Below, in pieces: positions 1 to 64,000 of a stretch of 64,000 nucleotides of DNA. Position 1 is the stretch's first letter. Every line of letters begins with the position of its first letter. The translations under genes were made by a program, and so were the position numbers. Under the pieces are notes generated by a model, which worked only from the letters and a program-made list of their open reading frames with translations, searched no databases and was not told the DNA's origin. This DNA comes from Alentia gelatinosa (lineage: Eukaryota > Annelida > Polychaeta > Phyllodocida > Polynoidae). The stretch spans positions 75,217,193 to 75,281,192 of the forward strand of contig OX465579.1 in the NCBI GenBank assembly GCA_950022655.1, read 5' to 3'.

Positions 1-88
1 CATCCTCTATCACAATGTTGAAAAAGGCTGCAAATTATCCATCTTAATTGTTTATAATGGTTACTTAGAAAGGTCTATTGGTACTCAC
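1..88 (-). other. Partial E2-E3 intron at the left edge
   Basis: Start of the intron that follows the E2 exon at 89-124 (donor gtgagtacc, reverse complement of 80-88). The E3 that should follow lies outside the window. Nothing else is visible. Confidence 0.75.
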
Positions 89-3000
89 TCGAAGGAATTT
101 CTGTTGAAGTTGGAGTTACCGATTCTGAAAGGTGATTTGAGACTCATGAGAAAGGGCCACCAACATAGATTGATTCAGTATTGTCCAAACCTTTTAAGCT
201 ACTAGTAACAGCAATAGGATTCCTCCTTATAAAAGATTCTGAATGAAAATGAAGCTTACCTGTAGTGCTCAGTAGTGTGGTTGTTTCCACAGCTGCTAAA
301 AGAAAAAATAAGACATGAAGTAAGATTGAACTATATATGGCGGTGAAAATCTCATCAAGTTCCCTTTTGGCCTGACAGTTGAACGAAGAGTATTGTACAC
401 TCTGACTATCACAGCTTGTGATAAAATTGGATTAAGACCCTCCCCAATATGTCCAAATCAGGTGCACTGGTTTAAATTTAATCACTACTAAGAATTATCT
501 GTTATCTACAGAGGTTCATTGACTTTATTATCCATCGTATACAAAGCCCCCATTGAAAATGTATAGGGACTCAGTAAACCACGACCCATTGTATAAAACC
601 TGTCAGATACAATAACTGTGGTATACGGATTCAAACCTGTGGTATACGGCCTTAAAACCATGGTATACGGGAAAAATAGTCCCTTTTGCTTTAGAGCAAA
701 GAAATAGTCCCCACTGTTATACCATTTAATGTGGCAATTACTGGGTTTAATTTATTCGAAAAGATGGATAATAAATACAATAAACGATGATTTTGTGGAC
801 AGGCGGCTCTGTAAACCACTCGAGGTTGACCTAGTAATACACTCGCTAGCGCTCGTGTATTACTAAGCGTCAACCTCTCGTGGTTTACGGCCGCCTGTCC
901 ACAAAACCATTGATTATTGTCTATATAGACCCTGCACTAGAGATCAAATGTGTGCTTGTGTAATTGATTAAAAGTACTTACAGGAAGAGCTCTGTTCTGA
1001 TGGTGTAGGTGCTCCAGAGACTACAAAGGAAAGATCAAAGCACATTTCAGGAAACTGGACTTGGATAGAACTGTGCAACTAGGATATGAAATTGCTAATA
1101 TCATAAAACTGAGATTGTGTTTCCTCATTTTGTCACTGATTTTGAGGGGTGAGCCACATAGATAAAAAGTAGAAATTAGGATGCTCTTGAAATAAATTGA
1201 CACATTTGTTGAAAACATCCATTTGTAACTCACCACTGGAATTGTCTCCTGATGTTGTTTCCACAGAGGCTAGAAATTAAATAGAGAGAACATCTTAAAA
1301 ATAGGCCTTTGCCTCAATGAACTATCATAATGTTCATTGTATATCTATTCTTATTTTTGTTGAGATAAAAAATCTTTGCACTGTGATGGAGATGGTCAAC
1401 ATATTTAAAAGTACCTTTCTGCTTCCGCTCCATAAAGAGTTCTATTCTTAAGATAATTATCAAATTTTTCACTTTTATTAACTCATTCTACACAAATGCA
1501 TCCTCTATCACAATGTTGAAAAAGGTTACAAATTATCCATCTTAATTGTTTATAATGGTTACTTAGAAAGGTCTATTGGTACTCACTCAAAGGAATTTCT
1601 GTTGAAGTTGGAGTTACCGATTCTGAAAGGTGATTTGAGACTCATGAGAAAGGGCCATCAACATAGATTGATTCAGTATTGTCCAAACCTTTTAAGCTAC
1701 TAGTAACAGCAATAGGATTCCTCCTTATAAAAGATTCTGAATGAAAATGAAGCTTACCTGTAGTGCTCAGTAGTGTGGTTGTTTCCACAGCTGCTAAAAG
1801 AAAAAATAAGACATGAAGTTAGATTGAACTATATATGGCGGTGAAAATCTCATCAAGTTCCCTTTTGGCCTGACAGTTGAACGAAGAGTATTGTACACTC
1901 TGACTATCACAGCTTGTGATAAAATTGGATTAAGACCCTCCCCAATATGTCCAAATCAGGTAGACTGGTTTAAATTTAATCACTACTAAGAATTATCTGT
2001 TATCTACAGAGGTTCATTGACTTTATTATCCATCGTATACAAAGCCCCCATTGAAAATGTATAGGGACTCAGTAAACCACGACCCATTGTATAAAACCTG
2101 TCAGATACCATAACTGTGGTATACGGATTCAAACCTGTGGTATACGGCCTTAAAACCATGGTATATGGGAAAAATAGTCCCTTTTGCTTTAGAGCAAAGA
2201 AATAGTCCCCACTGTTATACCATTTAATGTGGCAATTACTGGGTTTAATTTATTCGAAAAGATGGATAATAAATACAATAAAAGATGATTTTGTGGACAG
2301 GCGGCTCTGTAAACCACTCAAGGTTGACCTCGTAATACACTCGCTAGCGCTCGTGTATTACTAAGCGTCAACCTCTCGTGGTTTACGGCCGCCTATCCAC
2401 AAAACCATCGATTATTGTCTATATAGACCCTGCACTAGAGATCAAATGTGTGCTTGTGTAATTGATTAAAAGTACTTACAGGAAAAGCTCTCTTCTGATG
2501 TTGTAGGTGCTACAGACATTACAAAGGAAAGATCGAAGCACATTTCAGGAAACTGGACTTGGATAGAACTGTGCAACTAGGATATGAAATTCCTAATATC
2601 ATAAAACTGAGTTTGTGTTTCCTCATTTTGTCACTGATTTTGAGGGGTGAGCCACATAGATAAAAAGTAGAAATTAGGATGCTCTTGAAATAAATTGACA
2701 CATTTGTTGAAAACATCCATTTGTAACTCACCACTGGAAGTGTCTACTGATGTTGTTTCCACAGAGGCTAGAAATTAAATAGAGAGAACATCTTAAAAAT
2801 AGGCCTTTGCCTCAATGAACTATCATAATGTTCATTGTATATCTATTCTTATTTTTGTTGAGATAAAAAATCTTTGCATTGTAATGGAGATGGTCAACAT
2901 ATCTTATAAAACCTTTCTGCTTCCGCTCCATAAAGAGTACTATTCTTAAGATAATTATCAAATTTTTCAATTCTATTAACTCATTCTACACAAATGCATC

Positions 3001-6000
3001 CTCTATCACAATGTTGAAAAAGGTTGCAAATTATCCATCTTAATTGTTTATAATGGTTACTTAGAAAGGTCTATTGGTACTCACTCGAAGGAATTTCTGT
3101 TGAGGTTGGAGTAACCGATTCTGAAAGGTGATTTGAGACTCATGAGAAGGGGCCATCAACATAGATCGATTCAGTATTGTCCAAACCCTTTAAGCTATTA
3201 GTAACAGCAATAGGATTCCTCCTTATAAAAGATTCTGAATGAAAATGAAGCTTACCTGTAGTGCTCAGTAGTGTGGTTGTTTCCACATCTGCTAAAAGAA
3301 AAAATAAGACATGAAGTTAGATTGAACTATATATGGCGGTGAAAATCCCATCAATTTCCCTTTTGGCCTGACAGTTGAACGAAGAGTATTGTACACTCTG
3401 ACTATCACAGCTTGTGATAAAATTGGATAAAGACCCTCCCCAATATGTCCAAATCAGGTAGACTGGTTTAAATTTAATCACTACTAAGAATTATCTGTTA
3501 TCTACAGAGGTTCATTGACTATAGATCCTGCACTTGAGATCAAATGTGTGCTTGTGTAATTGATTAAAAGTATTTACAGGAAGAGCTCTCTTCTGATGTT
3601 GTAGGTGCTCCAGACACTACAAAGGAAAGATCAAAGCACTTTTCAGGAAACTGGACTTTGATAGAAATATGCAACTAGGATATGAAATTGCTAATATTAT
3701 AAAACTGAGAATGTGTTTCCTAATTTTGTCACTGATTTTGAGGGGTGAGCCACATACATAAAAAGTAGAAATAAGGATGCTCTTAAAATAAATTGACACA
3801 TTTGTTGAAAACATCCATTTGTAACTCACCACTGGAAGTGTCTACTGATGTTGTTTCCACAGAGGCTAGAAATTAAATAGAGAGAACATCTTAAAAATAG
3901 GCCTTTGCCTCAATGAACTATCATAATGTTCATTGTATATCTATTCTTATTTTTGTTGAGATAAAAAATCTTTGCATTGTAATGGAGATGGTCAACATAT
4001 CTTATAAAACCTTTCTGCTTCCGCTCCATAGAGAGTACTATTCTTAAGACAATTATCAAATTTTTCAATTCTATCAACACATACTACACAAATGCAGCCT
4101 CTATCACAATGTTGAAAAAGGCTGCAAATTATCCATCTTAATTGTTTATAATGATTACTTAGAAAGGTCTATTGGTACTCACTCGAAGGAATTTCTGTTG
4201 AAGTTGGAGTTACCGATTCTGAAAGGTGATTTGAGACTCATGAGAAAGGGCCATCAACATAGATTGATTCAGTATTGTCCAAACCTTTTAAGCTACTAGT
4301 AACAGCAATAGGATTCCTCCTTATAAAAGATTCTGAATGAAAATGAAGCTTACCTGTAGTGCTCAGTAGTGTGGTTGTTTCCACAGCTGCTAAAAGAAAA
4401 AATAAGACATGAAGTTAGATTGAACTATATATGGCGGTGAAAATCTCATCGAGTTCCCTTTTGGCCTGACAGTTGAACGAAGAGTATTGTACACTCTGAC
4501 TATCACAGCTTGTGATAAAATTGGATTAAGACCCTCCCCAATATGTCCAAATCAGGTAGACTGGTTTAAATTTAATCACTACTAAGAATTATCTGTTATC
4601 TACAGAGGTTCATTGACTTTTTTATCCATCGTATACAAAGCCCCCATTGAAAATGTATAGGGACTCAGTAAACCACGACCCATTGTATAAAACCTGTCAG
4701 ATACCATAACTGTGGTATACGGATTCAAACCTGTGGTATACGGGAAAAATAGTCCCTTATGCTTTAGAGCAAAGAAATAGTCCCCACTGTTATATCATTT
4801 AATGTGGCATTTACTGGGTTTAATTTATTCGAAATGATGGATAATAAATACAATAAACGATGATTTTGTGGACAGGCTGCTCTGTAAACCACTCGAGGTT
4901 GACCTCGTAATACACTCGCTAGCGCTCGTGTATTACTAAGCGTCAACCTCTCGTGGTTTACGGCCGCCTGTCCACAAAACCATCGATTATTGTCTATATA
5001 GACCCTGCACTAGAGATCAAATGTGTGCTTGTGTAATTGATTAAAAGTACTTACAGGAAGAGCTCTGTTCTGATGGTGTAGGTGCTCCAGAGACTACAAA
5101 GGAAAGATCAAAGCACATTTCAGGAAACTGGACTTGGATAGAACTGTGCAACTAGGATATGAAATTGCTAATATCATAAAACTGAGATTGTGTTTCCTCA
5201 TTTTGTCACTGATTTTGAGGGGTGAGCCACATAGATAAAAAGTAGAAACTAGGATGCTCTTGAAATAAATTGACACATTTGTTGAAAACATCCATTTGTA
5301 ATTCACCACTGGAAGTGTCTACTGATGTTGTTTCCACAGAGGCTAGAAATTAAATAGAGAGAACATGTTAAAAATAGGCCTTTGCCTCAATGAACTATCA
5401 TAATGTGCATTGTATTTCTATTCTTATTTTTGTTGAGATAAAAAATCTTTGCATTGTAATGGAGATGGTCAACATATTTAAAAGTACCTTTCTGCTTCCG
5501 CTCCATAGAGAGTTCTATTCTTAAGATAATTATCAAATTTTTCAATTCTATCAACACATACTACACAAATGCATCCTCTATCACAATGTTGAAAAAGGTT
5601 ACAAATTATCCATCTTAATTGTTTATAATGGTTACTTAGAAAGGTCTATTGGTACTCACTCGAAGGAATTTCTGTTGAGTTTGGAGTTACCGATTCTGAA
5701 AGGTGATTTGAGACTCATGAGAAAGGGCCATCAACATAGATCGATTCAGTATTGTCCAAACCCTTTAAGCTACTAGTAACAGCAATAGGATTCCTCCTTA
5801 TAAAAGATTCTGAGTGAAAATGAAGCTTACCTGTAGTGCTCAGTAGTGGGGTTGTTTCTACAGCTGCTAAAAGAAAAAAAAAGACATGAAGTTAGATTGA
5901 ACTATATATGGCGGTGAAAATCTCATCAATTTTCCTTTTGGCCCGACAGTTAAACCAAGAGTATTGTACATTCTGACTATCACAGCTTGTTATAAAATTG

Positions 6001-9000
6001 GATAAAGACCCTCCCCAATATGTCCAAATCAGGTAGACTGGTTTAAATTTAATCACTACTGAGAATTATGTGTTATCTACAGAGGTTCATTGATTATAGT
6101 CCCTGCACTAGAGATCAAATGTGTGCTTGTGTAATTGATTAAAAGTACTTACAGGAAAAGCTCTCTTCTGATGTTGTAGGTGCTACAGACACTACAAAGG
6201 AAACATCAAAGCACATTTCAGGAAACTGGACTTGGATAGAACTGTGCAACCAGGATATGAAATTGCTAATATCATAAAACTGAGTTTGTGTTTCCTCATT
6301 TTGTCACTGATTTTGAGGGGTGAGCCACATAGATAAAAAGTAGAAATTAGGATGCTCTTGAAATAAATTGACACATTTGTTGAAAACATCCATTTGTAAC
6401 TCACCACTGGAATTGTCTACTGATGTTGTTTCCACAGAGGCTAGAAATTAAAAAGAGAGAACATCTTAAAAATAGGCCTTTGCCTCAATAAACTATCATA
6501 ATGTTCATTGTATTTCTATTCTTATTTTTGTTGAGATAAAAAATCTTTGCATTGTAATGGAGATGGTCAACATATCTAAAAGTACTTTCTGCTTCCGCTC
6601 CATAGAGAGTACTTTTCTTAAGATAATTATCAAATTTTTCAATTCTATCAACACATACTACACAAATGCATCCTCTATCACAATGTTGAAAAAGGCTGCA
6701 AATTATCCATCTTAATTGTTTATAATGGTTACTTAGAAAGGTCTATTGGTACTCACTCAAAGGAATTTCTGTTGAAGTTGGAGTTACCGATTCTGAAAGG
6801 TGATTTGAGACTCATGAGAAAGGGTCATCAACATAGATTGATTCAGTATTGTCCAAACCTTTTAAGCTACTAGTAGCAGCAATAGGATTCCTCCTTATAA
6901 AAGATTCTGAATGAAAATGAAGCTTACCTGTAGTGCTCAGTAGTGTGGTTGTTTCCACAGCTGCTAAAAGAAAAAATAAGACATGAAGTTAGATTGAACT
7001 ATATATGGCGGTGAAAATCTCATCGAGTTCCCTTTTGGCCTGACAGTTGAACGAAGAGTATTGTACACTCTGACTATCACAGCTTGTGATAAAATTGGAT
7101 TAAGACCCTCCCCAATATGTCCAAATCAGGTAGACTGGTTTAAATTTAATCACTACTAAGAATTATCTGTTATCTACAGAGGTTCATTGACTTTTTTATC
7201 CATCGTATACAAAGCCCCCATTGAAAATGTATGGGGACTCAGTAAACCATGACCCATTGTATAAAACCTGTCAGATACAATAACTGTGGTATACGGATTC
7301 AAACCTGTGGTATACGGCCTTAAAACCATGGTATACGGGAAAAATAGTCCCTTTTGCTTTAGAGCAAAGAAATAGTCTCCACTGTTATACCATTTAATGT
7401 GGCAATTACTGGGTTTAATTTATTCGAAAAGATGGATAATAAATACAATAGACGATGATTTTGTGGACAGGCGGCTCTGTAAACCACTCGAGGTTGACCT
7501 CGTAATACACTCGCTAGCGCTCGTGTATTACTAAGCGTCAACCTCTCGTGGTTTACGGCCGCCTGTCCACAAAACCATCGATTATTGTCTATATAGACCC
7601 TGCACTAGAGATCAAATGTGTGCTTGTGTAATTGATTAAAAGTACTTACAGTAAGAGCTCTCTTCTGATGTTGTAGGTGCTCCAGAGACTACAAAGGAAA
7701 GATCAAAGCACATTTCAGGAAACTGGACTTGAATAGAACTGTGCAACTAGGATATGAAATTGCTAATATCATAAAACTGAGATTGTGTTTCCTCATTTTG
7801 TCACTGATTTTGAGGGGTGAGCCACATAGATAAAAAGTAGAAATTAGGATGCTCTTGAAATAAATTGACACATTTGTTGAAAACATCCATTTGTAACTCA
7901 CCACTGGAAGTGTCTACTGATGTTGTTTCCACAGAGGCTAGAAATTAAATATAGAGAACATCTTAAAAATAGGCCTTTGCCTCAATGAACTATCATAATG
8001 TGCATTGTATTTCTATTCTTATTTTTGGTGAGATAAAAAATCTTTGCACTGTGATGGAGATGGTCAACATATTTAAAAGTACCTTTCTGCTTCCGCTCCA
8101 TAAAGAGTTCTATTCTTAAGATAATTATCAAATTTTTCAATTCTATTAACTCATTCTACACAAATGCATCCTCTATCACAATGTTGAAAAAGGTTGCAAA
8201 TTATCCATCTTAATTGTTTATAATGGTTACTTAGAAAGGTCTATTGGTACTCACTCGAAGGAATTGCTGTTGAGGTTAGAGTTACCGATTCTGAAAGGTG
8301 ATTTGAGACTCATGAGAAAGGGCCATCAACATAGATCGATTCAGTATTGTCCAAACCCTTTAAGCTACTAGTAACAGCAATAGGATTCCTCCTTATAAAA
8401 GATTCTGAATGAAAATGAAGCTTACCTGTAGTGCTCAGTAGTGGGGTTGTTTCTACAGCTGCTAAAAGAAAAAAAAAGACATGAAGTTAGATTGAACTAT
8501 ATATGGCGGTGAAAATCTCATCAATTTTCCTTTTGGCCCGACAGTTAAACCAAGAGTATTGTACATTCTGACTATCACAGCTTGTTATAAAATTGGATAA
8601 AGACCCTCCCCAATATGTCCAAATCAGGTAGACTGGTTTAAATTTAATCACTACTGAGAATTATGTGTTATCTACAGAGGTTCATTGATTATAGTCCCTG
8701 CACTAGAGATCAAATGTGTGCTTGTGTAATTGATTAAAAGTACTTACAGGAAAAGCTCTCTTCTGATGTTGTAGGTGCTCCAGAGACTACAAAGGAAAGA
8801 TCAAAGCACATTTCAGGAAACTAGACTTGAATAGAACTGTGCAACTAGGATATGAAATTGCTAATATCATAAAACTGAGATTGTGTTTCCTCATTTTGTC
8901 ACTGATTTTGAGGGGTGAGCCACATAGATAAAAAGTAGAAATTAGGATGCTCTTGAAATAAATTGACACATTTGTTGAAAACATCCATTTGTAACTCACC

Positions 9001-57000: not shown

Positions 57001-60000
57001 ACTCATGAGAAAGGGCCATCAACATAGATTGATTCAGTATTGTCCAAACCTTTTAAGCTACTAGTAACAGCAATAGGATTCCTCCTTATAAAAGATTCTG
57101 AATGAAAATGAAGCTTACCTGTAGTGCTCAGTAGTGTGGTTGTTTCCACAGCTGCTAAAAGAAAAAATAAGACATGAAATTAGATTGAACTATATATGGT
57201 GGTGAAAATCTCATCGAGTTCCCTTTTGGCCTGACAGTTGAACGAAGAGTATTGTACACTCTGACTATCACAGCTTGTGATAAAATTGGATTAAGACCCT
57301 CCCCAATATGTCCAAATCAGGTAGACTGGTTTAAATTTAATTACTACTAAGAATTATCTGTTATCTACAGAGGTTCATTGACTTTTTTATCCATCGTATA
57401 CAAAGCCCCCATTGAAAATGTATAGGGACTCAGTAAACCACGACCCATTGTATAAAACCTGTCAGATACAATAACTGTGGTATACGGATTCAAACCTGTG
57501 GTATACGGCCTTAAAACCATGGTATACGGGAAAAATAGTCCCTTTTGCTTTAGAGCAAAGAAATAGTCTCCACTGTTATACCATTTAATGTGGCAATTAC
57601 TGGGTTTAATTTATTCGAAAAGATGGATAATAAATACAATAAAAGATGATTTTGTGGACAGGCGGCTCTGTAAACCACTCAAGGTTGACCTCGTAATACA
57701 CTCGCTAGCGCTTGTGTATTACTAAGCGTCAACCTCTCGTGGTTTACGGCCGCCTGTCCACAAAACCATCGATTATTGTCTATATAGACCCTGCACTAGA
57801 GATCAAATGTGTGCTTGTGTAATTGATTAAAAGTACTTACAGTAAGAGCTCTCTTCTGATGTTGTAGGTGCTCCAGAGACTACAAAGGAAAGATCAAAGC
57901 ACATTTCAGGAAACTGGACTTGGATAGAACTGTGCAACTAGGATATGAAATTGCTAATATCATAAAACTGAGATTGTGTTTCCTCATTTTGTCACTGATT
58001 TTGAGGGGTGAGCCACATAGATAAAAAGTAGAAACTAGGATGCTCTTGAAATAAATTGACACATTTGTTGAAAACATCCATTTGTAACTCACCACTGGAA
58101 GTGTCTACTGATGTTGTTTCCACAGAGGCTAGAAATTAAATAGAGAGAACATGTTAAAAATAGGCCTTTGCCTCAATGAACTATCATAATGTGCATTGTA
58201 TTTCTATTCTTATTTTTGTTGAGATAAAAAATCTTTGCATTGTAATGGAGATGGTCAACATATTTAAAAGTACCTTTCTGCTTCCGCTCCATAAAGAGTA
58301 CTATTCTTAAGATAATTATCAAATTTTTCAATTCTATCAAATTGTACTACACAAATGCATCCTCTATCACAATGTTGAAAAAGGTTACAAATTATCCATC
58401 TTAATTGTTTATAATGGTTACTTAGAAAGGTCTATTGGTACTCACTCGAAGGAATTTCTGTTGAGTTTGGAGTTACCGATTCTGAAAGGTGATTTGAGAC
58501 TCATGAGAAAGGGCCATCAACATAGATCGATTCAGTATTGTCCAAACCCTTTAAGCTACTAGTAACAGCAATAGGATTCCTCCTTATAAAAGATTCTGAA
58601 TGAAAATGAAGCTTACCTGTAGTGCTCAGTAGTGGGGTTGTTTCTACAGCTGCTAAAAGAAAAAAAAAGACATGAGGTTAGATTGAACTATATATGGCGG
58701 TGAAAATCTCATCAATTTTCCTTTTGGCCCGACAGTTAAACCAAGAGTATTTTACATTCTGACTATCACAGCTTGTTATAAAATTGGATAAAGACCCTCC
58801 CCAATATGTCCAAATCAGGTAGACTCGTTTAAATTTAATCACTACTAAGAATTATGTGTTATCTACAGAGGTTCATTGATTATAGTCCCTGCACTAGAGA
58901 TCAAATGTGTGCTTGTGTAAATGATTAAAAGTACTTACAGGAAAAGCTCTCTTCTGATGTTGTAGGTGCTACAGACGCTACAAAGGAAAGATCAAAGCAC
59001 ATTTCAGGAAACTGGACTTGGATAGAACTGTGCAACCAGGATATGAAATTGCTAATATCATAAAACTGAGTTTGTGTTTCCTCATTTTGTCACTGATTTT
59101 GAGGGGTGAGCCACATAGATAAAAAGTAGAAATTAGGATGCTCTTGAAATAAATTGACACATTTGTTGAAAACATCCATTTGTAACTCACCACTGGAAGT
59201 GTCTACTGATGTTGTTTCCACAGAGGCTAGAAATTAAATAGAGAGAACATCTTAAAAATAGGCCTTTGCCTCAATGAACTATCATAATGTTCATTGTATT
59301 TCTATTCTTATTTTTGTTGAGATAAAAAATCTTTGCATTGTAATGGAGATGGTCAACATATTTAAAAGTACCTTTCTGCTTCCGCTCCATAGAGAGTACT
59401 TTTCTTAAGATAATTATCAAATTTTTCAATTCTATCAACACATACTACACAAATGCATCCTCTATCACAATGTTGAAAAAGGCTGCAAATTATCCATCTT
59501 AATTGTTTTTAATGGTTACTTAGAAAGGTCTATTGGTACTCACTCGAAGGAATTTCTGTTGAAGTTGGAGTTACCGATTCTGAAAGGTGATTTGAGACTC
59601 ATGAGAAAGGGCCATCAACATAGATCGATTCAGTATTGTCCAAACCTTTTAAGCTACTAGTAACAGCAATAGGATTCCTCCTTATAAAAGATTCTGAATG
59701 AAAATGAAGCTTACCTGTAGTGCTCAGTAGTGTGGTTGTTTCCACAGCTGCTAAAAGAAAAAATAAGACATGAAGTTAGATTGAACTATATATGGCGGTG
59801 AAAATCTCATCGAGTTCCCTTTTGGGCTGACAGTTGAACGAAGAGTATTGTACACTCTGACTATCACAGCTTGTGATAAAATTGGATTAAGACCCTTCCC
59901 AATATGTCCAAATCAGGTAGACTGGTTTAGATTTAATCACTACTAAGAATTATCTGTTATCTACAGAGGTTCATTGACTTTTTTATCCATCGTATACAAA

Positions 60001-63000
60001 GCCCCCATTGAAAATGTATGGGGACTCAGTAAACCACGACCCATTGTATAAAACCTGTCAGATACAATAACTGTGGTATACGGATTCAAACCTGTGGTAA
60101 ACGGCCCTAAAACCATGGTATATGGGAAAAATAGTCCCTTTTGCTTTAGAGCAAAGAAATAGTCTCCACTGTTATACCATTTAATGTGGCAATTACTGGG
60201 TTTAATTTATTCGAAAAGATGGATAATAAATACAATAGACGATGATTTTGTGGACAGGCGGCTCTGTAAACCACTCAAGGTTGACCTCGTAATACACTCG
60301 CTAGCGCTCGTGTATTACTAAGCGTCAACCTCTCGTGGTTTACGGCCGCCTATCCACAAAACCATCGATTATTGTCTATATAGACCCTGCACTAGAGATC
60401 AAATGTGTGCTTCTGTAATTGATTAAAAGTACTTACAGGAAGAGCTCTCTTCTGATGTTGTTGGTGCTCCAGAGACTACAAAGGAAAGATCAAAGCACTT
60501 TTCAGGAAACTGGACTTGGATAGAACTGTGCAACTAGGATATGAAATTGCTAATATCATAAAACTGAGATTGTGTTTCCTCATTTTGTCACTGATTTTGA
60601 GGGGTGAGCCACATAGATAAAAAGTAGAAATTAGGATGCTCTTGAAATAAATTGACACATTTGTTGAAAACATCCATTTGTAACTCACCACTGGAAGTGT
60701 CTACTGATGTTGTTTCCACAGAGGCTAGAAATTAAATAGAGAGAACATCTTAAAAATAGGCCTTTGCCTCAATGAACTATCATAATGGGCATTGTTTTTC
60801 TATTCTTATTTTTGTTGAGATAAAAAATCTTTGCACTGTGATGGAGATGGTCAACATATTTAAAAGTACCTTTCTGCTTCCGCTCCATAAAGAGTTCTAT
60901 TCTTAAGATAATTATCAAATTTTTCAATTCTATCAACTCATTCTACACAAATGCATCCTCTATCACAATGTTGAAAAAGGTTGCAAATTATCCATCTTAA
61001 TTGTTTATAATGGTTACTTAGAAAGGTCTATTGGTACTCACTCGAAGGAATTTCTGTTGAGGTTGGAGTAACCGATTCTGAAAGGTGATTTGAGACTCAT
61101 GAGAAGGGGCCATCAACATAGATCGATTCAGTATTGTCCAAACCCTTTAAGCTATTAGTAACAGCAATAGGATTCCTCCTTATAAAGATTCTGAATGAAA
61201 ATGAAGCTTACCTGTAGTGCTCAGTAGTGTGGTTGTTTCCACATCTGCTAAAAGAAAAAATAAGACATGAAGTTAGATTGAACTATATATGGCGGTGAAA
61301 ATCTCATCGAGTTCCCTTTTGGCCTGACAGTTGAACGAAGAGTATTGTACACTCTGACTATCACAGCTTGTGATAAATTTGGATTAAGACCCTCCCCAAT
61401 ATGTCCAAATCAGGTAGACTGGTTTAGATTTAATCACTACTAAGAATTATCTGTTATCTACAGAGGTTCATTGACTTTTTTATCCATCGTATACAAAGCC
61501 CCCATTGAAAATGTATGGGGACTCAGTAAACCACGACCCATTGTATAAACCTGTCAGATACAATAACTGTGGTATACCGATTCAAACCTGTGGTATACGG
61601 CCTTAAAACCATGGTATACAGGAAAAATAGTCCCTTTTGCTTTAGAGCAAAGAAATAGTCTCCACTGTTATACCATTTAATGTGGCAACTACTGGGTTTA
61701 ATTTATTCGAAAAGATAGACAATAAATACAATAGACGATGATTTTGTGGACAGGCGGCTCTGTAAACCACTCAAGGTTGACCTCGTAATACACTCGCTAG
61801 CGCTCGTGTATTACTAAGCGTCAACCTCTCATGGTTTACGGCCGCCTATCCACAAAACCATCGATTATTGTCTATATAGACCCTGCACTAGAGATCAAAT
61901 GTATGCTTCTGTAATTGATTAAAAGTACTTACAGGAAGAGCTCTCTTCTGATGTTGTAGGTGCTCCAGAGACTACAAAGGAAAGATCAAAGCACTTTTCA
62001 GGAAACTGGACTTGGATAGAACTGTGCAACTAGGATATGAAATTGCTAATATCATAAAACTGAGATTGTGTTTCCTCATTTTGTCACTGATTTTGAGGGG
62101 TGAGCCACATAGATAAAAAGTAGAAATTAGGATGCTCTTGAAATAAATTGACACATTTGTTGAAAACATCCATTTGTAACTCACCACTGGAAGTGTCTAC
62201 TGATGTTGTTTCCACAGAGGCTAGAAATTAAATAGAGAGAACATCTTAAAAATAGGCCTTTGCCTCAATGAACTATCATAATGGGCATTGTTTTTCTATT
62301 CTTATTTTTGTTGAGATAAAAAATCTTTGCACTGTGATGGAGATGGTCAACATATTTAAAAGTACCTTTCTGCTTCCGCTCCATAAAGAGTTCTATTCTT
62401 AAGATAATTATCAAATTTTTCAATTCTATCAACTCATTCTACACAAATGCATCCTCTATCACAATGTTGAAAAAGGTTGCAAATTATCCATCTTAATTGT
62501 TTATAATGGTTACTTAGAAAGGTCTATTGGTACTCACTCGAAGGAATTTCTGTTGAGGTTGGAGTCACCGATTCTGAAAGGTGATTTGAGACTCATGAGA
62601 AAGGGCCATCAACATAGATCGATTCAGTATTGTCCAAACCTTTTAAGCTACTAGTAACAGCAATAGGATTCATCCTTATAAAAGATTCTGAATGAAAATG
62701 AAGCTTACCTGTAGTGCTCAGTAGTGGGGTTGTTTCCACAGCTGCTAAAAGAAAAAAAAAGACATGAAGTTAGATTGAACTATATATGGCGGTGAAAATC
62801 TCATCAATTTCCCTTTTGGCCCGACAGTTAAACCAAGAGTATTGTACACTCTGACTATCACAGCTTGTGACAAAATTGGATAAAGACCCTCCCCAATATG
62901 TCCAAATTAGGTAGACTGGTTTAAATTTGATCACTACTAAGAATTATGTGTTATCTACAGGTTTCATTGAATATAGACCCTGCACTAGAAATCAAATGTG

Positions 63001-64000
63001 TGCTTGTGTAATTGATTAAAAGTACTTACAGGAAGAGCTCTCTTCTGATGTTGTAGGTGCTACAGACACTACAAAGGAAAGATCAAAGGACATTTTAGGA
63101 AACTGGACTTGGATAGAAATGTGCAACTAGGATATGAAATTGCTAATATCATAAAACTGAGATTGTGTTTCCTCATTTTGTCACTGATTTTGAGAGGTGA
63201 GCCATATAGATAAAAAGTAGAAATTAGGATGCTCTTGAAATAAATTGACACATTTGTTGAAAACATCCATTTGTAACTCACCACTGGAAGTGTCTACTGA
63301 TGTTGTTTCCACAGAGGCTAGAAATTAAAAAGAAAGAACATTTTAAAAATAGCCCTTTGCCTCATTGAACAATCATAATGTGCAATGTATTTCTATTCTT
63401 ATTTTTGTTGAGATAAAAAATCTTTGCATTGTAATGGAGATGGTCAACATATTTAAAAGTACCTTTCTGCTACCGCTCCATAGAGAGAACTATTCTTAAG
63501 ATAATTATCAAATTTTTCAATTCTATTAACTCATTCTACACAAATGCATCCTCTATCACAATGTTGAAAAAGGCTGCAAATTATCCATCTTAATTGTTTA
63601 TAATGGTTACTTAGAAAGGTCTATTGGTACTCACTGGAAGGAATTTCTGTTGAGGTTGGAGTTACCGATTCTGAAAGGTGATTTGAGACTCATGAGAAAG
63701 GGCCATCAACATAGATTGATTCAGTATTGTCCAAATCCTTTAAGCTACAAGTAACAGCAATAGGATTCCTCCTAATAAAAGATTCTGTATGAAAATGAAG
63801 CTTACCTGTAGTGCTCAGTAGTATGGTTGTTTCCACAGCTGCTAAAAGAAAAAATAAGACATGAAGTTAGATTGAACTATATATGGTGGTGAAAATCCCA
63901 CCAATTTCCCTTTTGGCCTGACAGTTGAACCAAGAGTATTGTACACTCGGACTATCACAGCTTGTGATAAAATTGGATAAAGACCCTCCCCAATATGTCC
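1..64000 (-). CDS. Interior of a giant micro-exon gene encoding a mucin-like Ser/Thr/Pro-rich repeat domain (both ends outside the window)
   Basis: Seen: 206 exon candidates of 36 or 39 nt on the minus strand. Acceptors read cttttag, cctttcag, atttctag and cctttgtag before E1 to E4. Donors read gtaagcttc, gtgagtacc, gtgagttac and gtaagtact after them. All are phase 1, with split codons T|CA Ser, G|AA Glu, A|CC Thr and G|TC or G|TG Val. No exon has an indel or in-frame stop. Joined, they give a 49-residue repeat, about 63% Ser/Thr/Pro, without Lys, Arg or Cys. Family knowledge: such PTS repeats are O-glycosylated mucin domains of secreted or surface proteins; phase 1-1 exons are usual for extracellular modules. 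Inference: this is the stalk region of a secreted or membrane mucin. No signal peptide, cysteine-rich domain, membrane anchor or poly(A) site lies in the window, so the final product is unknown. A decayed, untranscribed array is the main alternative, made unlikely by the intact exons. Confidence 0.82.
89..295 (-). CDS. Unit 1 (partial): exons E1-E2
   Basis: E1 260-295 AVETTTLLSTT; E2 89-124 SVTPTSTEIPS. The E3 and E4 of this unit are beyond the left edge. The intron between them is 125-259 (135 nt). Confidence 0.8.
524..923. mobile_element. 400-bp foldback insert, copy 1 (reference copy)
   Basis: Defined by comparing long with short introns: exactly 400 bp lies between cattgac (517-523) and tatagaccc (924-932). 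Contents: TTTATTATCCATC at 524-536, which pairs with GATGGATAATAAA further in; gtaaaccacga near 574-584, which matches the hairpin arms; three 21-bp repeats around 617-670; a small TTTGCT/AGCAAA hairpin near 680-695; and a 116-bp imperfect palindrome at 791-906 with arms of about 52 bp starting TTTTGTGGACAGGCGG. No open frame of note and no clean target-site duplication. Probably an old non-autonomous foldback or MITE-like element; family not recognised. Confidence 0.6.
616..677. repeat. 21-bp sub-repeat inside the foldback insert
   Basis: Three direct copies built on TGTGGTATACGG at 617-628, 638-649 and (as CATGGTATACGG) 659-670. It recurs in each insert and is the site of length change in two of them. 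Confidence 0.7.
982..1793 (-). CDS. Unit 2: exons E1-E4
   Basis: E1 1758-1793 AVETTTLLSTT; E2 1587-1622 SVTPTSTEIPL (last full codon TTG instead of TCG); E3 1234-1269 SVETTSGDNSS, in which N-S-S forms an N-glycosylation sequon; E4 982-1020 SGAPTPSEQSSS, the Pro/Gln form of E4. This unit is followed in transcription by a long E4-E1 intron. Confidence 0.8.
1270..1586 (-). other. E2-E3 intron (317 nt), the representative long constant intron
   Basis: Runs from donor gtgagtacc (1578-1586, reverse strand) to acceptor atttctag (1270-1277). It holds an 8-bp perfect inverted repeat, CAATGAAC at 1315-1322 and GTTCATTG at 1332-1339, which most other copies carry with one mismatch. No coding potential. 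A 27-nt exon-like stretch near 1420-1450 was considered and rejected. Confidence 0.6.
2022..2421. mobile_element. Foldback insert, copy 2
   Basis: Palindrome at 2289-2404. The third 21-bp repeat reads gtatatgg instead of gtatacgg, and the right arm has TATCC for TGTCC. Confidence 0.6.
2480..3291 (-). CDS. Unit 3: exons E1-E4, E4 acceptor changed
   Basis: E1 3256-3291 DVETTTLLSTT; E2 3085-3120 SVTPTSTEIPS; E3 2732-2767 SVETTSVDTSS; E4 2480-2518 SVAPTTSEESFS. The AG before E4 reads AA (bases 2519-2520 are tt on the plus strand). An AG nine bases into the exon would give a 30-nt, in-frame exon at 2480-2509. Confidence 0.75.
3292..3577 (-). other. E4-E1 intron, short form (286 nt)
   Basis: The insert-free version of the intron, showing the empty site (cattgac followed directly by tatagatcctg, 3514-3531) that is occupied by the 400-bp insert in long units. 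The acceptor is a pyrimidine-rich tract ending cttttag. Nothing else is visible. Confidence 0.65.
3578..4389 (-). CDS. Unit 4: exons E1-E4
   Basis: E1 4354-4389 AVETTTLLSTT; E2 4183-4218 SVTPTSTEIPS; E3 3830-3865 SVETTSVDTSS; E4 3578-3616 SGAPTTSEESSS. The E4 donor is gtaaata, weaker than the usual gtaagta. Confidence 0.8.
4618..4996. mobile_element. Foldback insert, copy 3 (379 bp)
   Basis: Palindrome at 4864-4979. Lacks one 21-bp repeat, so ctgtggtatacgg runs straight into gaaaaatag near 4741. Confidence 0.6.
5055..5866 (-). CDS. Unit 5: exons E1-E4, weakened E3 donor
   Basis: E1 5831-5866 AVETTPLLSTT; E2 5660-5695 SVTPNSTEIPS (NST sequon); E3 5307-5342 SVETTSVDTSS, whose donor is gtgaat rather than gtgagt, losing the +5 G; E4 5055-5093 SGAPTPSEQSSS. 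Confidence 0.78.
6153..6963 (-). CDS. Unit 6: exons E1-E4
   Basis: E1 6928-6963 AVETTTLLSTT; E2 6757-6792 SVTPTSTEIPL; E3 6405-6440 SVETTSVDNSS (NSS sequon); E4 6153-6191 SVAPTTSEESFS. A single C is missing from the E2-E3 intron near 6585, so the unit is one base short while the exons are unaffected. Confidence 0.8.
7192..7591. mobile_element. Foldback insert, copy 4
   Basis: Palindrome at 7459-7574. Left end reads ttttttatcc rather than tttattatcc. Confidence 0.6.
7650..8461 (-). CDS. Unit 7: exons E1-E4
   Basis: E1 8426-8461 AVETTPLLSTT; E2 8255-8290 SVTLTSTAIPS (Pro to Leu and Glu to Ala); E3 7902-7937 SVETTSVDTSS; E4 7650-7688 SGAPTTSEESSY, with Tyr replacing the last Ser. Confidence 0.8.
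8748..9559 (-). CDS. Unit 8: exons E1-E4
   Basis: E1 9524-9559 AVETTTLLSTT; E2 9353-9388 SVTPTSTEIPS; E3 9000-9035 SVETTSVDTSS; E4 8748-8786 SGAPTTSEESFS. Near-identical to the unit at 13539-14350, 4,791 bp to the right. Confidence 0.8.
9788..10187. mobile_element. Foldback insert, copy 5
   Basis: Palindrome at 10055-10170. Same subtype as copy 1, with ctagtaatac in the left arm. Confidence 0.6.
10246..11057 (-). CDS. Unit 9: exons E1-E4
   Basis: E1 11022-11057 AVETTPLLSTT; E2 10852-10887 SVTPTSTEIPS; E3 10498-10533 SVETTSVDTSS; E4 10246-10284 SGAPTPSEQSSS. The introns carry three small indels: an A-run gains two bases near 10786, a base is lost near 10560, and a T is lost near 10938. The exons have none. 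Confidence 0.8.
11344..12154 (-). CDS. Unit 10: exons E1-E4
   Basis: E1 12119-12154 DVETTTLLSTT; E2 11948-11983 SVTPTSTEIPS, ending in G, so the split codon with E3 becomes Ala instead of Thr; E3 11596-11631 SVETTSVDTSS with the consensus donor gtaagt; E4 11344-11382 SVAPTTSEESFS. Confidence 0.8.
12441..13252 (-). CDS. Unit 11: exons E1-E4
   Basis: E1 13217-13252 AVETTPLLSTT; E2 13046-13081 SVTLTSTEIPS; E3 12693-12728 SVETTSVDTSS; E4 12441-12479 SVAPTTSEESLS. Confidence 0.8.
13539..14350 (-). CDS. Unit 12: exons E1-E4
   Basis: E1 14315-14350 AVETTTLLSTT; E2 14144-14179 SVTPTSTEIPS; E3 13791-13826 SVETTSVDTSS; E4 13539-13577 SGAPTTSEESFS. Copy of unit 8 in the 4.79-kb duplication. Confidence 0.8.
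14579..14978. mobile_element. Foldback insert, copy 6
   Basis: Palindrome at 14846-14961. Repeats copy 5 at an offset of 4,791 bp. Confidence 0.6.
15037..15848 (-). CDS. Unit 13: exons E1-E4
   Basis: E1 15813-15848 AVETTPLLSTT; E2 15643-15678 SVTPTSTEIPS; E3 15289-15324 SVETTSVDTSS; E4 15037-15075 SGAPTPSEQSSS. Copy of unit 9, sharing all three of its intron indels. Confidence 0.8.
16135..16945 (-). CDS. Unit 14: exons E1-E4
   Basis: E1 16910-16945 DVETTTLLSTT; E2 16739-16774 SVTPTSTEIPS ending in G (Ala split codon); E3 16387-16422 SVETTSVDTSS with donor gtaagt; E4 16135-16173 SVAPTTSEESFS. Copy of unit 10. Confidence 0.8.
17232..18043 (-). CDS. Unit 15: exons E1-E4
   Basis: E1 18008-18043 AVETTTLLSTT; E2 17837-17872 SVTPTSTEIPS; E3 17484-17519 SVETTSVDTSS with a silent GTG to GTT change; E4 17232-17270 SVAPTTSEESLS. 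The 4.79-kb identity to unit 11 ends just after this E4, near 17320. Confidence 0.8.
18330..19141 (-). CDS. Unit 16: exons E1-E4
   Basis: E1 19106-19141 DVETTTLLSTT; E2 18935-18970 SVTPTSTEIPS ending in G (Ala split codon); E3 18582-18617 SVETTLVDTSS; E4 18330-18368 SVAPTTSEASSS, beginning CG so that the split codon with E3 is Ala rather than Val. Confidence 0.8.
19428..20239 (-). CDS. Unit 17: exons E1-E4, most divergent E1
   Basis: E1 20204-20239 SLETTTIPGTT, which has five changes from the common form yet keeps its length and splice sites; E2 20033-20068 SVTPTSTEILS ending in G; E3 19680-19715 SVETTSGDTSS; E4 19428-19466 SVAPTTSEESFS. Confidence 0.8.
20525..21336 (-). CDS. Unit 18: exons E1-E4
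   Basis: E1 21301-21336 AVETTTLLSTT; E2 21130-21165 SVTPNSTEIPS (NST sequon); E3 20777-20812 SVETTSVDTSS; E4 20525-20563 SVAPTTSEESLS. Confidence 0.8.
21623..22434 (-). CDS. Unit 19: exons E1-E4
   Basis: E1 22399-22434 AVETTTLLSTT; E2 22228-22263 SVTPTSTEIPS with a silent TCG to TCC change in the last codon; E3 21875-21910 SVETTSVDTSS; E4 21623-21661 SGAPTTSEESSS with donor gtaaata. Confidence 0.8.
22663..23062. mobile_element. Foldback insert, copy 7
   Basis: Palindrome at 22930-23045. Left arm has the ggctgctctg variant, mismatching the right arm. Confidence 0.6.
23121..23932 (-). CDS. Unit 20: exons E1-E4
   Basis: E1 23897-23932 AVETTTLLSTT; E2 23726-23761 SVTPNSTEIPS (sequon); E3 23373-23408 SVETTSVDTSS; E4 23121-23159 SGAPTTSEESFS. 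A one-base intron insertion near 23953 happens to open an 89-residue frame through E1, which I do not regard as a gene. Confidence 0.8.
24220..25030 (-). CDS. Unit 21: exons E1-E4, E4 acceptor changed
   Basis: E1 24995-25030 AVETTTLLSTT; E2 24824-24859 SVTPTSTEIPS; E3 24471-24506 SVETTSVDTSS; E4 24220-24258 SVAPTTSEESFS, with AG to AA at its acceptor (24259-24260) and the same in-frame AG nine bases downstream as unit 3. One base is missing from the E3-E4 intron near 24410. Confidence 0.75.
25259..25658. mobile_element. Foldback insert, copy 8
   Basis: Palindrome at 25526-25641. The loop reads cgctagcgcttg. Confidence 0.6.
25717..26528 (-). CDS. Unit 22: exons E1-E4
   Basis: E1 26493-26528 AVETTPLLSTT; E2 26322-26357 SVTPNSTEIPS (sequon); E3 25969-26004 SVETTSVDTSS; E4 25717-25755 SGAPTTSEESSY. 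Confidence 0.8.
26815..27626 (-). CDS. Unit 23: exons E1-E4
   Basis: E1 27591-27626 AVETTPLLSTT; E2 27420-27455 SVTLTSTEIPS; E3 27067-27102 SVETTSVDTSS; E4 26815-26853 SVAPTTSEESFS beginning CG (Ala split codon). Confidence 0.8.
27913..28724 (-). CDS. Unit 24: exons E1-E4
   Basis: E1 28689-28724 DVETTTLLSTT; E2 28518-28553 SVTPTSTEIPS; E3 28165-28200 SVETTSVDTSS; E4 27913-27951 SGAPTTSEESFS. It lies in the 2.2-kb stretch not included in the second 29.5-kb copy. Confidence 0.8.
29011..29822 (-). CDS. Unit 25: exons E1-E4, at the 29.5-kb junction
   Basis: E1 29787-29822 AVETTTLLSTT; E2 29616-29651 SVTPTSTEIPS; E3 29263-29298 SVETTSVDTSS; E4 29011-29049 SGAPPTSEESSS, with a Thr to Pro change and donor gtaaata. 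Its E1 and E2 correspond to 260-295 and 89-124. Confidence 0.8.
30051..30450. mobile_element. Foldback insert, copy 9
   Basis: Palindrome at 30318-30433. Counterpart of 524-923 in the second 29.5-kb block. Confidence 0.6.
30509..31320 (-). CDS. Unit 26: exons E1-E4 (copy of unit 2)
   Basis: E1 31285-31320; E2 31114-31149 (EIPL form); E3 30761-30796 (GDNSS form with sequon); E4 30509-30547 (Pro/Gln form). Matches 982-1793 at an offset of 29,527. Confidence 0.8.
31549..31948. mobile_element. Foldback insert, copy 10
   Basis: Palindrome at 31816-31931. Counterpart of 2022-2421, with the same gtatatgg change. Confidence 0.6.
32007..32818 (-). CDS. Unit 27: exons E1-E4 (copy of unit 3), E4 acceptor changed
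   Basis: E1 32783-32818 DVETTTLLSTT; E2 32612-32647; E3 32259-32294; E4 32007-32045, with the AA acceptor at 32046-32047 inherited from the block duplication. Confidence 0.75.
33105..33916 (-). CDS. Unit 28: exons E1-E4 (copy of unit 4)
   Basis: E1 33881-33916; E2 33710-33745; E3 33357-33392; E4 33105-33143 SGAPTTSEESSS with donor gtaaata. Confidence 0.8.
34145..34523. mobile_element. Foldback insert, copy 11 (379 bp)
   Basis: Palindrome at 34391-34506. Carries the same 21-bp deletion as 4618-4996. Confidence 0.6.
34582..35393 (-). CDS. Unit 29: exons E1-E4 (copy of unit 5)
   Basis: E1 35358-35393 AVETTPLLSTT; E2 35187-35222 with NST sequon; E3 34834-34869 with the weak gtgaat donor; E4 34582-34620 SGAPTPSEQSSS. 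A G to C difference from copy 1 lies in the following intron (34554 against 5027). Confidence 0.78.
35680..36490 (-). CDS. Unit 30: exons E1-E4 (copy of unit 6)
   Basis: E1 36455-36490; E2 36284-36319 (EIPL form); E3 35932-35967 (VDNSS form with sequon); E4 35680-35718 SVAPTTSEESFS. Shares the one-base intron deletion of unit 6. Confidence 0.8.
36719..37118. mobile_element. Foldback insert, copy 12
   Basis: Palindrome at 36986-37101. Counterpart of 7192-7591. Confidence 0.6.
37177..37988 (-). CDS. Unit 31: exons E1-E4 (copy of unit 7)
   Basis: E1 37953-37988 AVETTPLLSTT; E2 37782-37817 SVTLTSTAIPS; E3 37429-37464; E4 37177-37215 SGAPTTSEESSY. Confidence 0.8.
38275..39086 (-). CDS. Unit 32: exons E1-E4 (copy of unit 8)
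   Basis: E1 39051-39086; E2 38880-38915; E3 38527-38562; E4 38275-38313 SGAPTTSEESFS. Confidence 0.8.
39315..39714. mobile_element. Foldback insert, copy 13
   Basis: Palindrome at 39582-39697. Differs from its counterpart at 9788-10187 by C to T at 39501. Confidence 0.6.
39773..40584 (-). CDS. Unit 33: exons E1-E4 (copy of unit 9)
   Basis: E1 40549-40584 AVETTPLLSTT; E2 40379-40414; E3 40025-40060; E4 39773-39811 SGAPTPSEQSSS. Confidence 0.8.
40871..41681 (-). CDS. Unit 34: exons E1-E4 (copy of unit 10)
   Basis: E1 41646-41681 DVETTTLLSTT; E2 41475-41510 ending in G; E3 41123-41158 with donor gtaagt; E4 40871-40909 SVAPTTSEESFS. A G to A difference from copy 1 lies in the E2-E3 intron (41271 against 11744). 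Confidence 0.8.
41968..42779 (-). CDS. Unit 35: exons E1-E4 (copy of unit 11)
   Basis: E1 42744-42779 AVETTPLLSTT; E2 42573-42608 SVTLTSTEIPS; E3 42220-42255; E4 41968-42006 SVAPTTSEESLS. Confidence 0.8.
43066..43877 (-). CDS. Unit 36: exons E1-E4 (copy of unit 12)
   Basis: E1 43842-43877; E2 43671-43706; E3 43318-43353; E4 43066-43104 SGAPTTSEESFS. Confidence 0.8.
44106..44505. mobile_element. Foldback insert, copy 14
   Basis: Palindrome at 44373-44488. Counterpart of 14579-14978. Confidence 0.6.
44564..45375 (-). CDS. Unit 37: exons E1-E4 (copy of unit 13)
   Basis: E1 45340-45375 AVETTPLLSTT; E2 45170-45205; E3 44816-44851; E4 44564-44602 SGAPTPSEQSSS. Confidence 0.8.
45662..46472 (-). 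CDS. Unit 38: exons E1-E4 (copy of unit 14)
   Basis: E1 46437-46472 DVETTTLLSTT; E2 46266-46301 ending in G; E3 45914-45949 with donor gtaagt; E4 45662-45700 SVAPTTSEESFS. Confidence 0.8.
46759..47570 (-). CDS. Unit 39: exons E1-E4 (copy of unit 15)
   Basis: E1 47535-47570; E2 47364-47399; E3 47011-47046 with silent GTT; E4 46759-46797 SVAPTTSEESLS. A C to T difference from copy 1 lies in the following intron (46694 against 17167). Confidence 0.8.
47857..48668 (-). CDS. Unit 40: exons E1-E4 (copy of unit 16)
   Basis: E1 48633-48668 DVETTTLLSTT; E2 48462-48497 ending in G; E3 48109-48144 SVETTLVDTSS; E4 47857-47895 SVAPTTSEASSS beginning CG. Confidence 0.8.
48955..49766 (-). CDS. Unit 41: exons E1-E4 (copy of unit 17)
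   Basis: E1 49731-49766 SLETTTIPGTT, the divergent form; E2 49560-49595 SVTPTSTEILS ending in G; E3 49207-49242 SVETTSGDTSS; E4 48955-48993 SVAPTTSEESFS. Confidence 0.8.
50052..50863 (-). CDS. Unit 42: exons E1-E4 (copy of unit 18)
   Basis: E1 50828-50863; E2 50657-50692 with NST sequon; E3 50304-50339; E4 50052-50090 SVAPTTSEESLS. Confidence 0.8.
51150..51961 (-). CDS. Unit 43: exons E1-E4 (copy of unit 19)
   Basis: E1 51926-51961; E2 51755-51790; E3 51402-51437; E4 51150-51188 SGAPTTSEESSS with donor gtaaata. Confidence 0.8.
52190..52589. mobile_element. Foldback insert, copy 15
   Basis: Palindrome at 52457-52572. Counterpart of 22663-23062. Confidence 0.6.
52648..53459 (-). CDS. Unit 44: exons E1-E4 (copy of unit 20)
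   Basis: E1 53424-53459; E2 53253-53288 with NST sequon; E3 52900-52935; E4 52648-52686 SGAPTTSEESFS. Last complete unit before the two 29.5-kb copies fall out of step. Confidence 0.8.
53747..54558 (-). CDS. Unit 45: exons E1-E4, in the block absent from copy 1
   Basis: E1 54523-54558 AVETTTLLSTT; E2 54352-54387 SVTPTSTEIPS; E3 53999-54034 SVETTSVDTSS; E4 53747-53785 SGAPTTSEESFS, in a form that begins TG. Private intron changes around 53967-53991 set it apart from its neighbours. Confidence 0.8.
54787..55186. mobile_element. Foldback insert, copy 16
   Basis: Palindrome at 55054-55169. Lies in the 2,597-bp block absent from copy 1; the right arm has cgtcagcctc for cgtcaacctc. Confidence 0.6.
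55245..56056 (-). CDS. Unit 46: exons E1-E4, in the block absent from copy 1
   Basis: E1 56021-56056 AVETTTLLSTT; E2 55850-55885 SVTPNLTEIPS, where the third-position change in the sequon keeps it valid (NLT); E3 55497-55532 SVETTSVDTSS; E4 55245-55283 SGAPTTSEESFS. Confidence 0.8.
56344..57154 (-). CDS. Unit 47: exons E1-E4 (copy of unit 21), E4 acceptor changed
   Basis: E1 57119-57154; E2 56948-56983; E3 56595-56630; E4 56344-56382 with an AA acceptor at 56383-56384. Offset from copy 1 is now 32,124. Confidence 0.75.
57383..57782. mobile_element. Foldback insert, copy 17
   Basis: Palindrome at 57650-57765. Counterpart of 25259-25658. Confidence 0.6.
57841..58652 (-). CDS. Unit 48: exons E1-E4 (copy of unit 22)
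   Basis: E1 58617-58652 AVETTPLLSTT; E2 58446-58481 with NST sequon; E3 58093-58128; E4 57841-57879 SGAPTTSEESSY. Confidence 0.8.
58939..59750 (-). CDS. Unit 49: exons E1-E4, identity to copy 1 ends inside
   Basis: E4 58939-58977 SVAPTTSEESFS (CG start) and E3 59191-59226 match unit 23. Beyond about 59434 the sequence departs: E2 59544-59579 is SVTPTSTEIPS and E1 59715-59750 is AVETTTLLSTT, where unit 23 has SVTLTSTEIPS and AVETTPLLSTT. Confidence 0.8.
59979..60378. mobile_element. Foldback insert, copy 18
   Basis: Palindrome at 60246-60361. The second 21-bp repeat is damaged (ggtaaacgg). Confidence 0.6.
60437..61247 (-). CDS. Unit 50: exons E1-E4
   Basis: E1 61212-61247 DVETTTLLSTT; E2 61042-61077 SVTPTSTEIPS; E3 60689-60724 SVETTSVDTSS; E4 60437-60475 SGAPTTSEESSS with a silent CCT to CCA change. 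One A is missing from the E1-E2 intron near 61186. Confidence 0.8.
61476..61874. mobile_element. Foldback insert, copy 19 (399 bp)
   Basis: Palindrome at 61742-61857. One base is missing near 61548; several further substitutions (gtataccg, gtatacagg, aagatagac) make it the most decayed copy. Confidence 0.6.
61933..62744 (-). CDS. Unit 51: exons E1-E4
   Basis: E1 62709-62744 AVETTPLLSTT; E2 62538-62573 SVTPTSTEIPS; E3 62185-62220 SVETTSVDTSS; E4 61933-61971 SGAPTTSEESSS. Flanking introns share private changes with unit 50. Confidence 0.8.
63030..63841 (-). CDS. Unit 52: exons E1-E4
   Basis: E1 63806-63841 AVETTILLSTT; E2 63635-63670 SVTPTSTEIPS; E3 63282-63317 SVETTSVDTSS; E4 63030-63068 SVAPTTSEESSS. 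Its introns carry the most single-base differences from the other units. Confidence 0.8.
63842..64000 (-). other. Partial E4-E1 intron at the right edge
   Basis: 3' part of the intron ending at the acceptor cttttag before E1 at 63806-63841. The preceding E4 is outside the window. Nothing else is visible. Confidence 0.7.

Follow-up and report, generated by a model that had tools for sequence, protein, structure and literature searches.

The locus poses the question of whether a satellite-like tandem array, lacking long open reading frames, is the interior of a protein-coding gene. The window, i.e., the whole 64,000-nucleotide stretch of annelid DNA that was analysed, had been described in an earlier note as an array of micro-exons for a mucin-like protein, hidden among conventional frames too short to attract attention. 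The shortness of those frames was borne out, as no closed ATG-started open reading frame of at least 80 amino acids was present on either strand of the window. A tRNA scan of the window returned none. TRF run at score 200 also reported nothing in the window, and since its longest period was 500, the repeat unit described below was missed.

Structure of the micro-exon array

Every minus-strand position of the 64-kb window was compared with four ungapped templates, each consisting of an exon with 9-11 nt of upstream and 10 nt of downstream sequence, and matches of 70% or more were accepted. The scan gave 206 exon-like stretches (52 E1, 52 E2, 51 E3, and 51 E4), which follow each other strictly in the order 1-2-3-4 from position 63841 down to 89, with no gap in the series. 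The array (89..63841, minus strand) comprises 51 complete units and E1-E2 of the next, and all of its exons are phase 1. Exon lengths of E1, E2, E3, and E4 were 36, 36, 36, and 39 nt in 206 of 206 cases without exception. On the minus strand, the first E1 lies at 63806..63841 (the last at 260-295), the first E2 at 63635..63670 (last, 89-124), the first E3 at 63282..63317 (last, 1234-1269), and the first E4 at 63030..63068 (last, 982-1020). The array runs across both edges of the window. The count of at least 206 micro-exons, their lengths, and the continuation of the array past both edges were therefore as the earlier note had given them, and no break in the order and no altered length was found.

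A GT donor was present in all 206 exons. The donor was GTAAGC in 52/52 E1 and GTGAGT in 52/52 E2; E3 (n = 51) carried GTGAGT in 45, GTAAGT in four, and GTGAAT in two cases, and E4 (n = 51) GTAAGT in 46 and GTAAAT in five. An AG acceptor was found in 202 of the 206 exons, and the other four were E4 exons with AA in its place (56344..56382, 32007-32045, 24220-24258, and 2480-2518, minus strand). These four belong to two distinct units, and in each of them an AG follows in frame, 9 nt into the exon. The claim that all exons have proper splice sites thus held for the donors and, with these four exceptions, for the acceptors. In addition, 50 of the 52 E1 exons are preceded by a tandem acceptor of the NAGNAG type, TAGCAG (e.g., just above 63841), so that two in-frame lengths of E1, 36 and 33 nt, are possible.

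The introns E1-E2, E2-E3, and E3-E4 were 134-135, 316-318, and 212-213 nt long, respectively. The E4-E1 intron occurred in two forms: of the 51 complete cases, 32 measured 285-287 nt and 19 measured 665-686 nt. Units were 1,097-1,099, 1,477, or 1,497-1,498 nt long (up to 1,499 nt), compared with the about 1.1 kb given in the earlier note.

Properties of the conceptual protein

The exons add up to 7,569 nt, or 11.8% of the window, in agreement with the roughly 7.6 kb of coding sequence suggested before. When they were joined in phase 1, the frame remained open over 2,522 codons with no stop; the other two frames of the join contained 187 and 2 stops, one of them thus being nearly open too. The conceptual translation is a 49-residue repeat. 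Serine, threonine, and proline made up 60.6% of the 2,522 residues and 61.2% of the unit consensus (62.5% with E1 = 33 nt), slightly below the share of about 63% that had been stated along with this repeat. The most frequent residues were S (26.9%), T (26.8%), E (11.8%), V (10.7%), and P (6.9%). Acidic residues accounted for 14.2%, and C, H, K, M, R, and W were absent from all 2,522 residues. All 13 asparagines were located within N-x-S/T sequons. Thr-to-Asn changes occur at two repeat positions, in E2 (Pro-Asn variants) and in E3 (Asp-Asn variants), and each creates an N-glycosylation sequon.

PTS domains of mucins contain little or no cysteine. The translation is likewise a Pro/Thr/Ser-rich tandem repeat, with no cysteine in 2,522 residues. 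Mucins also have a secretion signal and flanking domains (VWD, CysD, SEA, or an anchor). No signal peptide, anchor, cysteine-rich domain, gene start, or gene end was present in the window, which was counted against its assignment to a giant gene.

Protein searches with queries of 490, 196, and 1,029 residues, in each of which 7,982-7,991 candidates were scored, gave no relative at E-values of 0.001, 10, and 10, respectively. For so repetitive a query, missing matches are weak evidence, and composition-bias correction may suppress queries of this kind. A Pfam search (245/2,522 residues) gave a single match with an E-value of 0.15, below the cut-off.

Probable identity as the interior of a giant mucin-type gene

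Judged from the sequence, the window is probably the interior of one giant mucin-type gene on the minus strand, to which we assign a probability of about 0.75. In such a gene, a Ser/Thr/Pro-rich domain would be encoded by a tandem series of units, some 1.1 or 1.5 kb long, with four symmetric phase-1 micro-exons apiece. Once transcribed, the array would be spliced E1-E2-E3-E4-E1 and onward into the 49-residue repeat. The presumably secreted product would be acidic and free of cysteine and basic residues, with dense possible O-glycosylation sites and occasional N-glycosylation sequons. Because the exons are multiples of three and the introns are in phase 1, units could be gained or lost, or exons skipped, without a change of frame. 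The number of units would probably change by unequal crossing-over, and the length of the domain would drift like that of a VNTR. Of the earlier proposal of a mucin-like coding array, the anatomy, phase, count, and composition were confirmed; a working gene is the most likely reading of them, although no homologous protein was matched and the exons vary as much as the introns do.

In its most far-reaching form, this interpretation assigns more than 206 near-identical phase-1 micro-exons to one gene of an animal. Roughly 12% of the satellite-like array, which spans at least 64 kb, would be spliced to give a mucin domain exceeding 2,500 residues, and the domain would evolve in length via unequal exchange of whole four-exon cassettes and of blocks comprising as many as about 19 of them. 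We put this form at even odds. If the array does belong to a single gene, we know of no larger homogenised micro-exon array. A large secreted or surface protein would then have escaped standard annotation, its exons being 36-39 nt long and probably repeat-masked as satellite, and "satellite" DNA of other assemblies may conceal mucins as well. Such a gene would also offer a test bed for the order and fidelity of the spliceosome across more than 200 near-identical introns, and another for unequal crossing-over as the process that sets mucin length. Symmetric mini-exons of the same phase inside megasatellites are a cheap target for scanning.

Divergence among units and block duplication

Pairwise comparison of the units gave a mean of 40.2 substitutions. 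Over 1,275 unit pairs, identity averaged 96.6% (minimum, 94.1%) in introns, calculated without a 400-bp insert described below, and 95.4% (minimum, 89.1%) in exons. At most three substitutions separated 33 of the 1,275 pairs. When units with three or fewer substitutions and similar length were collapsed, 27 of the 51 units remained as distinct.

A block of 23,637 bp with 19 units occurs twice on the minus strand, as units 9-27 (29823..53459) and as units 33-51 (296..23932). The two copies differ by five mismatches with no gap (99.98% identity), and because of this doubling the 206 exons are not 206 independent ones. At the border of the block, units 5-6 are followed by 7-8-9, whereas their twins 31-32 lead directly to 33; units 7-8 have no counterpart between 32 and 33, so that the copies differ in structure at that border. 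Smaller near-identical runs were found inside the block (units 15-17, 19-21, 39-41, and 43-45).

Either a recent duplication or an error of assembly can account for the doubling. It is possible, though we incline against it, that the array is coding and yet inflated in size, two haplotypes or mis-joined reads having been assembled as successive copies. The length of the doubled segment and its five gapless mismatches speak for such an artefact. The surroundings of the two copies differ, however (6 to 7-8-9 versus 32 to 33), and the near-identical runs within the block suggest that blocks were duplicated repeatedly. With the second copy removed, the array would still hold 32 complete units. The size of the array, for which the earlier note knew of no described case, carries the caveat that 23.6 kb of it is present twice at 99.98% identity. 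An inflated size is compatible with the interpretation as a giant mucin-type gene, and the probabilities of the two overlap rather than add up to one.

Fixed or variable joining of exons

The gene may instead be transcribed with a variable subset of its exons joined, as schistosome micro-exon genes reportedly are, in which case the array would be a source of isoform diversity and not the template of one fixed giant mucin. This is unlikely in our estimation. Every exon is phase 1-1 and a multiple of three, hence skippable in frame, and the tandem TAGCAG acceptor of 50/52 E1 exons could yield either 36 or 33 nt. Splice sites are, however, nearly uniform across units, and few exons are marked as weaker (the four AA acceptors and a few donors). 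Variable joining overlaps with the giant mucin-type gene, and here too the probabilities are not additive to one.

Sequence constraint and the possibility of a relic

Constraint was assessed in the 27 collapsed units, using 867 intron columns that were more than 90% occupied and excluding insert and splice-site columns. Variable columns numbered 35 of 147 in exons versus 165 of 867 in introns. The exon variants comprised 27 nonsynonymous and nine synonymous changes, where the intron spectrum predicts 21.7 and 9.0. Neither column variability nor the nonsynonymous/synonymous counts gave evidence of purifying selection on exons within the array. Because the exons are no less variable than the introns, it is only by inference that we attribute a present function to the array.

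Splice-site columns varied less (acceptor, 1/12; polypyrimidine tract, 6/48; donor, 3/24) than the 0.19 used for comparison. The splice dinucleotides varied at one of 16 sites, no exon contained an indel, and no stop variant was found in exons versus 1.04 expected from the intron spectrum. The exon template was then slid round the unit, with variants and indels counted at each placement. At the real placement, one splice-breaking or frame-shifting variant was counted versus a mean of 4.7 over all placements, 4.9% of which were as low, a borderline result. Each measure singly was nonsignificant (splice dinucleotides, 18% of placements as low; exon indels, 19%), and the Poisson sum including stops was 0.028.

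An array without protein-level constraint would be plausible for a young, homogenised mucin domain and equally for a relic. A relic, in which exons and introns would derive from a real mucin gene while the cassette was amplified as a satellite and the array has ceased to belong to a working gene, is the main rival to the giant-gene interpretation, and we regard it as decidedly unlikely. It would account for exons that are no better conserved than introns and for nonsynonymous changes that are no rarer than neutrality predicts. Recent homogenisation, visible in the 33 of 1,275 pairs with no more than three substitutions, could also preserve exons without selection, and the loss of AG in four E4 exons (two distinct units) would suit decay. 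On the other hand, all 206 exons are free of indels and stops, and disabling variants are below expectation with p of about 0.03-0.05. The E4 exons lacking the AG also retain the in-frame AG 9 nt further on, an observation made with no control for chance.

Splice-site strength, exon kinship, and chance origin

When the 1,098-nt unit consensus was scored with matrices of the mammalian type, the four highest donor scores (12.4, 10.3, 7.8, and 7.3; next, 5.3) fell on the four exon donors. For these four donors, acceptors lie at 33 or 36, 36, 36, and 39 nt, which gives an open join. For comparison, 20,000 first-order Markov units were simulated, in which the four best donors were taken and any YAG with at least five pyrimidines in eight, 24-60 nt away, was accepted. 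Acceptors for all four best donors were found in 920 of them, the join was open in two, and none reached 45% Ser/Thr/Pro. The real unit has 62.5% (E1 = 33 nt), compared with a mean of 18% and a maximum of 41% across every 49-codon window of the unit on either strand.

Under the mammalian-type matrix, the acceptors of E2 and E3 fell outside the 12 best acceptors, which was counted against the giant mucin-type gene, and only E1 and E4 emerged as strong acceptor-donor pairs. Intronic decoy acceptors scored 6.7-7.1 versus 6.9 for the 36-nt form of E1. In 400 random units, strong acceptor-donor pairs occurred at a mean of 0.57 per unit (0.23 for multiples of three), and the opposite strand of the real unit has one such pair (50 nt, not a multiple of three). 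Splice-site strength as a standalone argument was rejected, since strong pairs arise in random units at this mean of 0.57. The case against chance lies in the joint phase, frame, and composition, not in splice-site scores taken singly.

Likeness among the exons was also found. E1 and E3 share a local match of 20 nt with 17 identities (p = 0.002 against codon-shuffled exons), and E3 and E4 one of 14 nt with 13 identities (p = 0.0095). The remaining four of the six exon pairs showed no significant likeness relative to codon-shuffled exons. None of 5,988 sampled pairs of intron 36-mers scored 12 or more, and the 100-nt upstream flanks of the six exon pairs had no likeness beyond shuffles; the downstream flanks were scored without a control. 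These results fit a history, inferred from the likeness itself, in which E1, E3, and E4 would descend from one exon, the introns having long diverged and the exons predating the amplification of the cassette.

The exon anatomy is real, and its origin by chance is very unlikely. A non-coding satellite with accidental exon-like stretches, to which a megasatellite structure without a long open reading frame, the frequency of single strong pairs in random units, and the pair on the opposite strand might point, is nearly refuted by the 0 of 20,000 simulated units matching in frame and composition, and it is hardly credible given also the six residue types missing from the translation and an E1-E3 and E3-E4 likeness confined to exons.

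Comparison with known systems

In another group of polymorphic mucins, short repeats are encoded by exons. Davis et al. in 1988 reportedly described, by the title of their paper, 81-base repeats of Schistosoma mansoni encoded by tandemly repeated exons; compared on that title, their system resembles the array in its tandemly repeated exons but has an 81-base repeat.

The closest known system is that of the S. mansoni polymorphic mucins (SmPoMuc), of which the array appears to be a larger variant, and the schistosome precedent invoked in the earlier note holds in this sense. According to the accessible part of PMC2576457, the 5' repeat units of SmPoMuc genes measure roughly 1 kb (trace records give 1,022-1,037 bp), with one 27-bp exon per unit and up to 20 genomic units per gene; transcripts with up to 100 repeats were reported, and exons 3-15 and an intronic hammerhead ribozyme lie outside the repeat region. 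Both systems, as far as that text goes, consist of tandem units of about 1 kb made up of exon and introns, with tiny in-frame exons and S/T/P repeats. SmPoMuc introns are more than 93-94% identical, comparable to the mean of 96.6% and minimum of 94.1% in the array, and the predicted pI of 4.3-5 matches the acidic translation obtained here (PMC2576457). A further likeness is the variation of SmPoMuc repeat number between genes (PMC2576457).

The array differs from SmPoMuc, as described there, in having four exons (36/36/36/39 nt) per unit instead of one of 27 bp, and more than 51 units instead of up to 20 (PMC2576457). SmPoMuc units are parted by imperfect GA microsatellites, whereas the longest GA run in the array was 6 nt and the longest purine run 16 nt (PMC2576457). 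As for the hammerhead ribozyme (PMC2576457), the Rfam scan of the window, which is array interior without gene ends, returned no match. Identity with SmPoMuc was rejected, as the one-exon unit and the GA microsatellites were not found. If the array is a gene, it would carry the SmPoMuc plan further, with cassettes of four exons and a unit number above 50.

Schistosome micro-exon genes (MEGs), according to the accessible parts of PMC10526429 and PMC4015677, have exons of 3-81 bp, mostly symmetrical multiples of three, with 10-20 very short exons, the majority of 15 bp; their products are secreted, and they are difficult for automatic annotation. All 206 exons of the window, at 36 or 39 nt, are of this micro-exon size (PMC10526429). 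Unlike the array, MEGs as described in those parts form no near-identical tandem array of one cassette (PMC10526429, PMC4015677), and the word "mucin" does not occur in PMC10526429. The likeness to PMC7177656 lies in polymorphic mucins, and "exon" occurs nowhere in the part of its text that was available. The accessible part of PMC10900676 has nothing on mucin exon arrays. No mucin array of this size was described among the matches listed in the literature search, which covered titles and the starts of abstracts, with subscription papers mostly outside its range.

Insert in the E4-E1 intron

The longer form of the E4-E1 intron is due to a 400-bp element, present at a constant site and in constant orientation in 19 of the 51 complete introns (the first at 61248..61932 and another at 1794-2479, minus strand). 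Two of the 19 carry a form about 21 nt shorter, and the end motif of the insert was absent from 32/32 short E4-E1 introns. The palindrome core had no exact match in genome contigs (27 and 20 bases) or viral contigs (27 and 18 bases). An imperfect palindrome of about 145 nt, which could fold into a long hairpin, lies at one end of the insert. The insert further contains 21-nt repeats in 2.3-2.6 copies, which TRF located at 14 places when run at score 40. One insertion that spread along with the units is the simplest account, and in its structure the insert looks like a non-autonomous mobile element carried by unit duplication.
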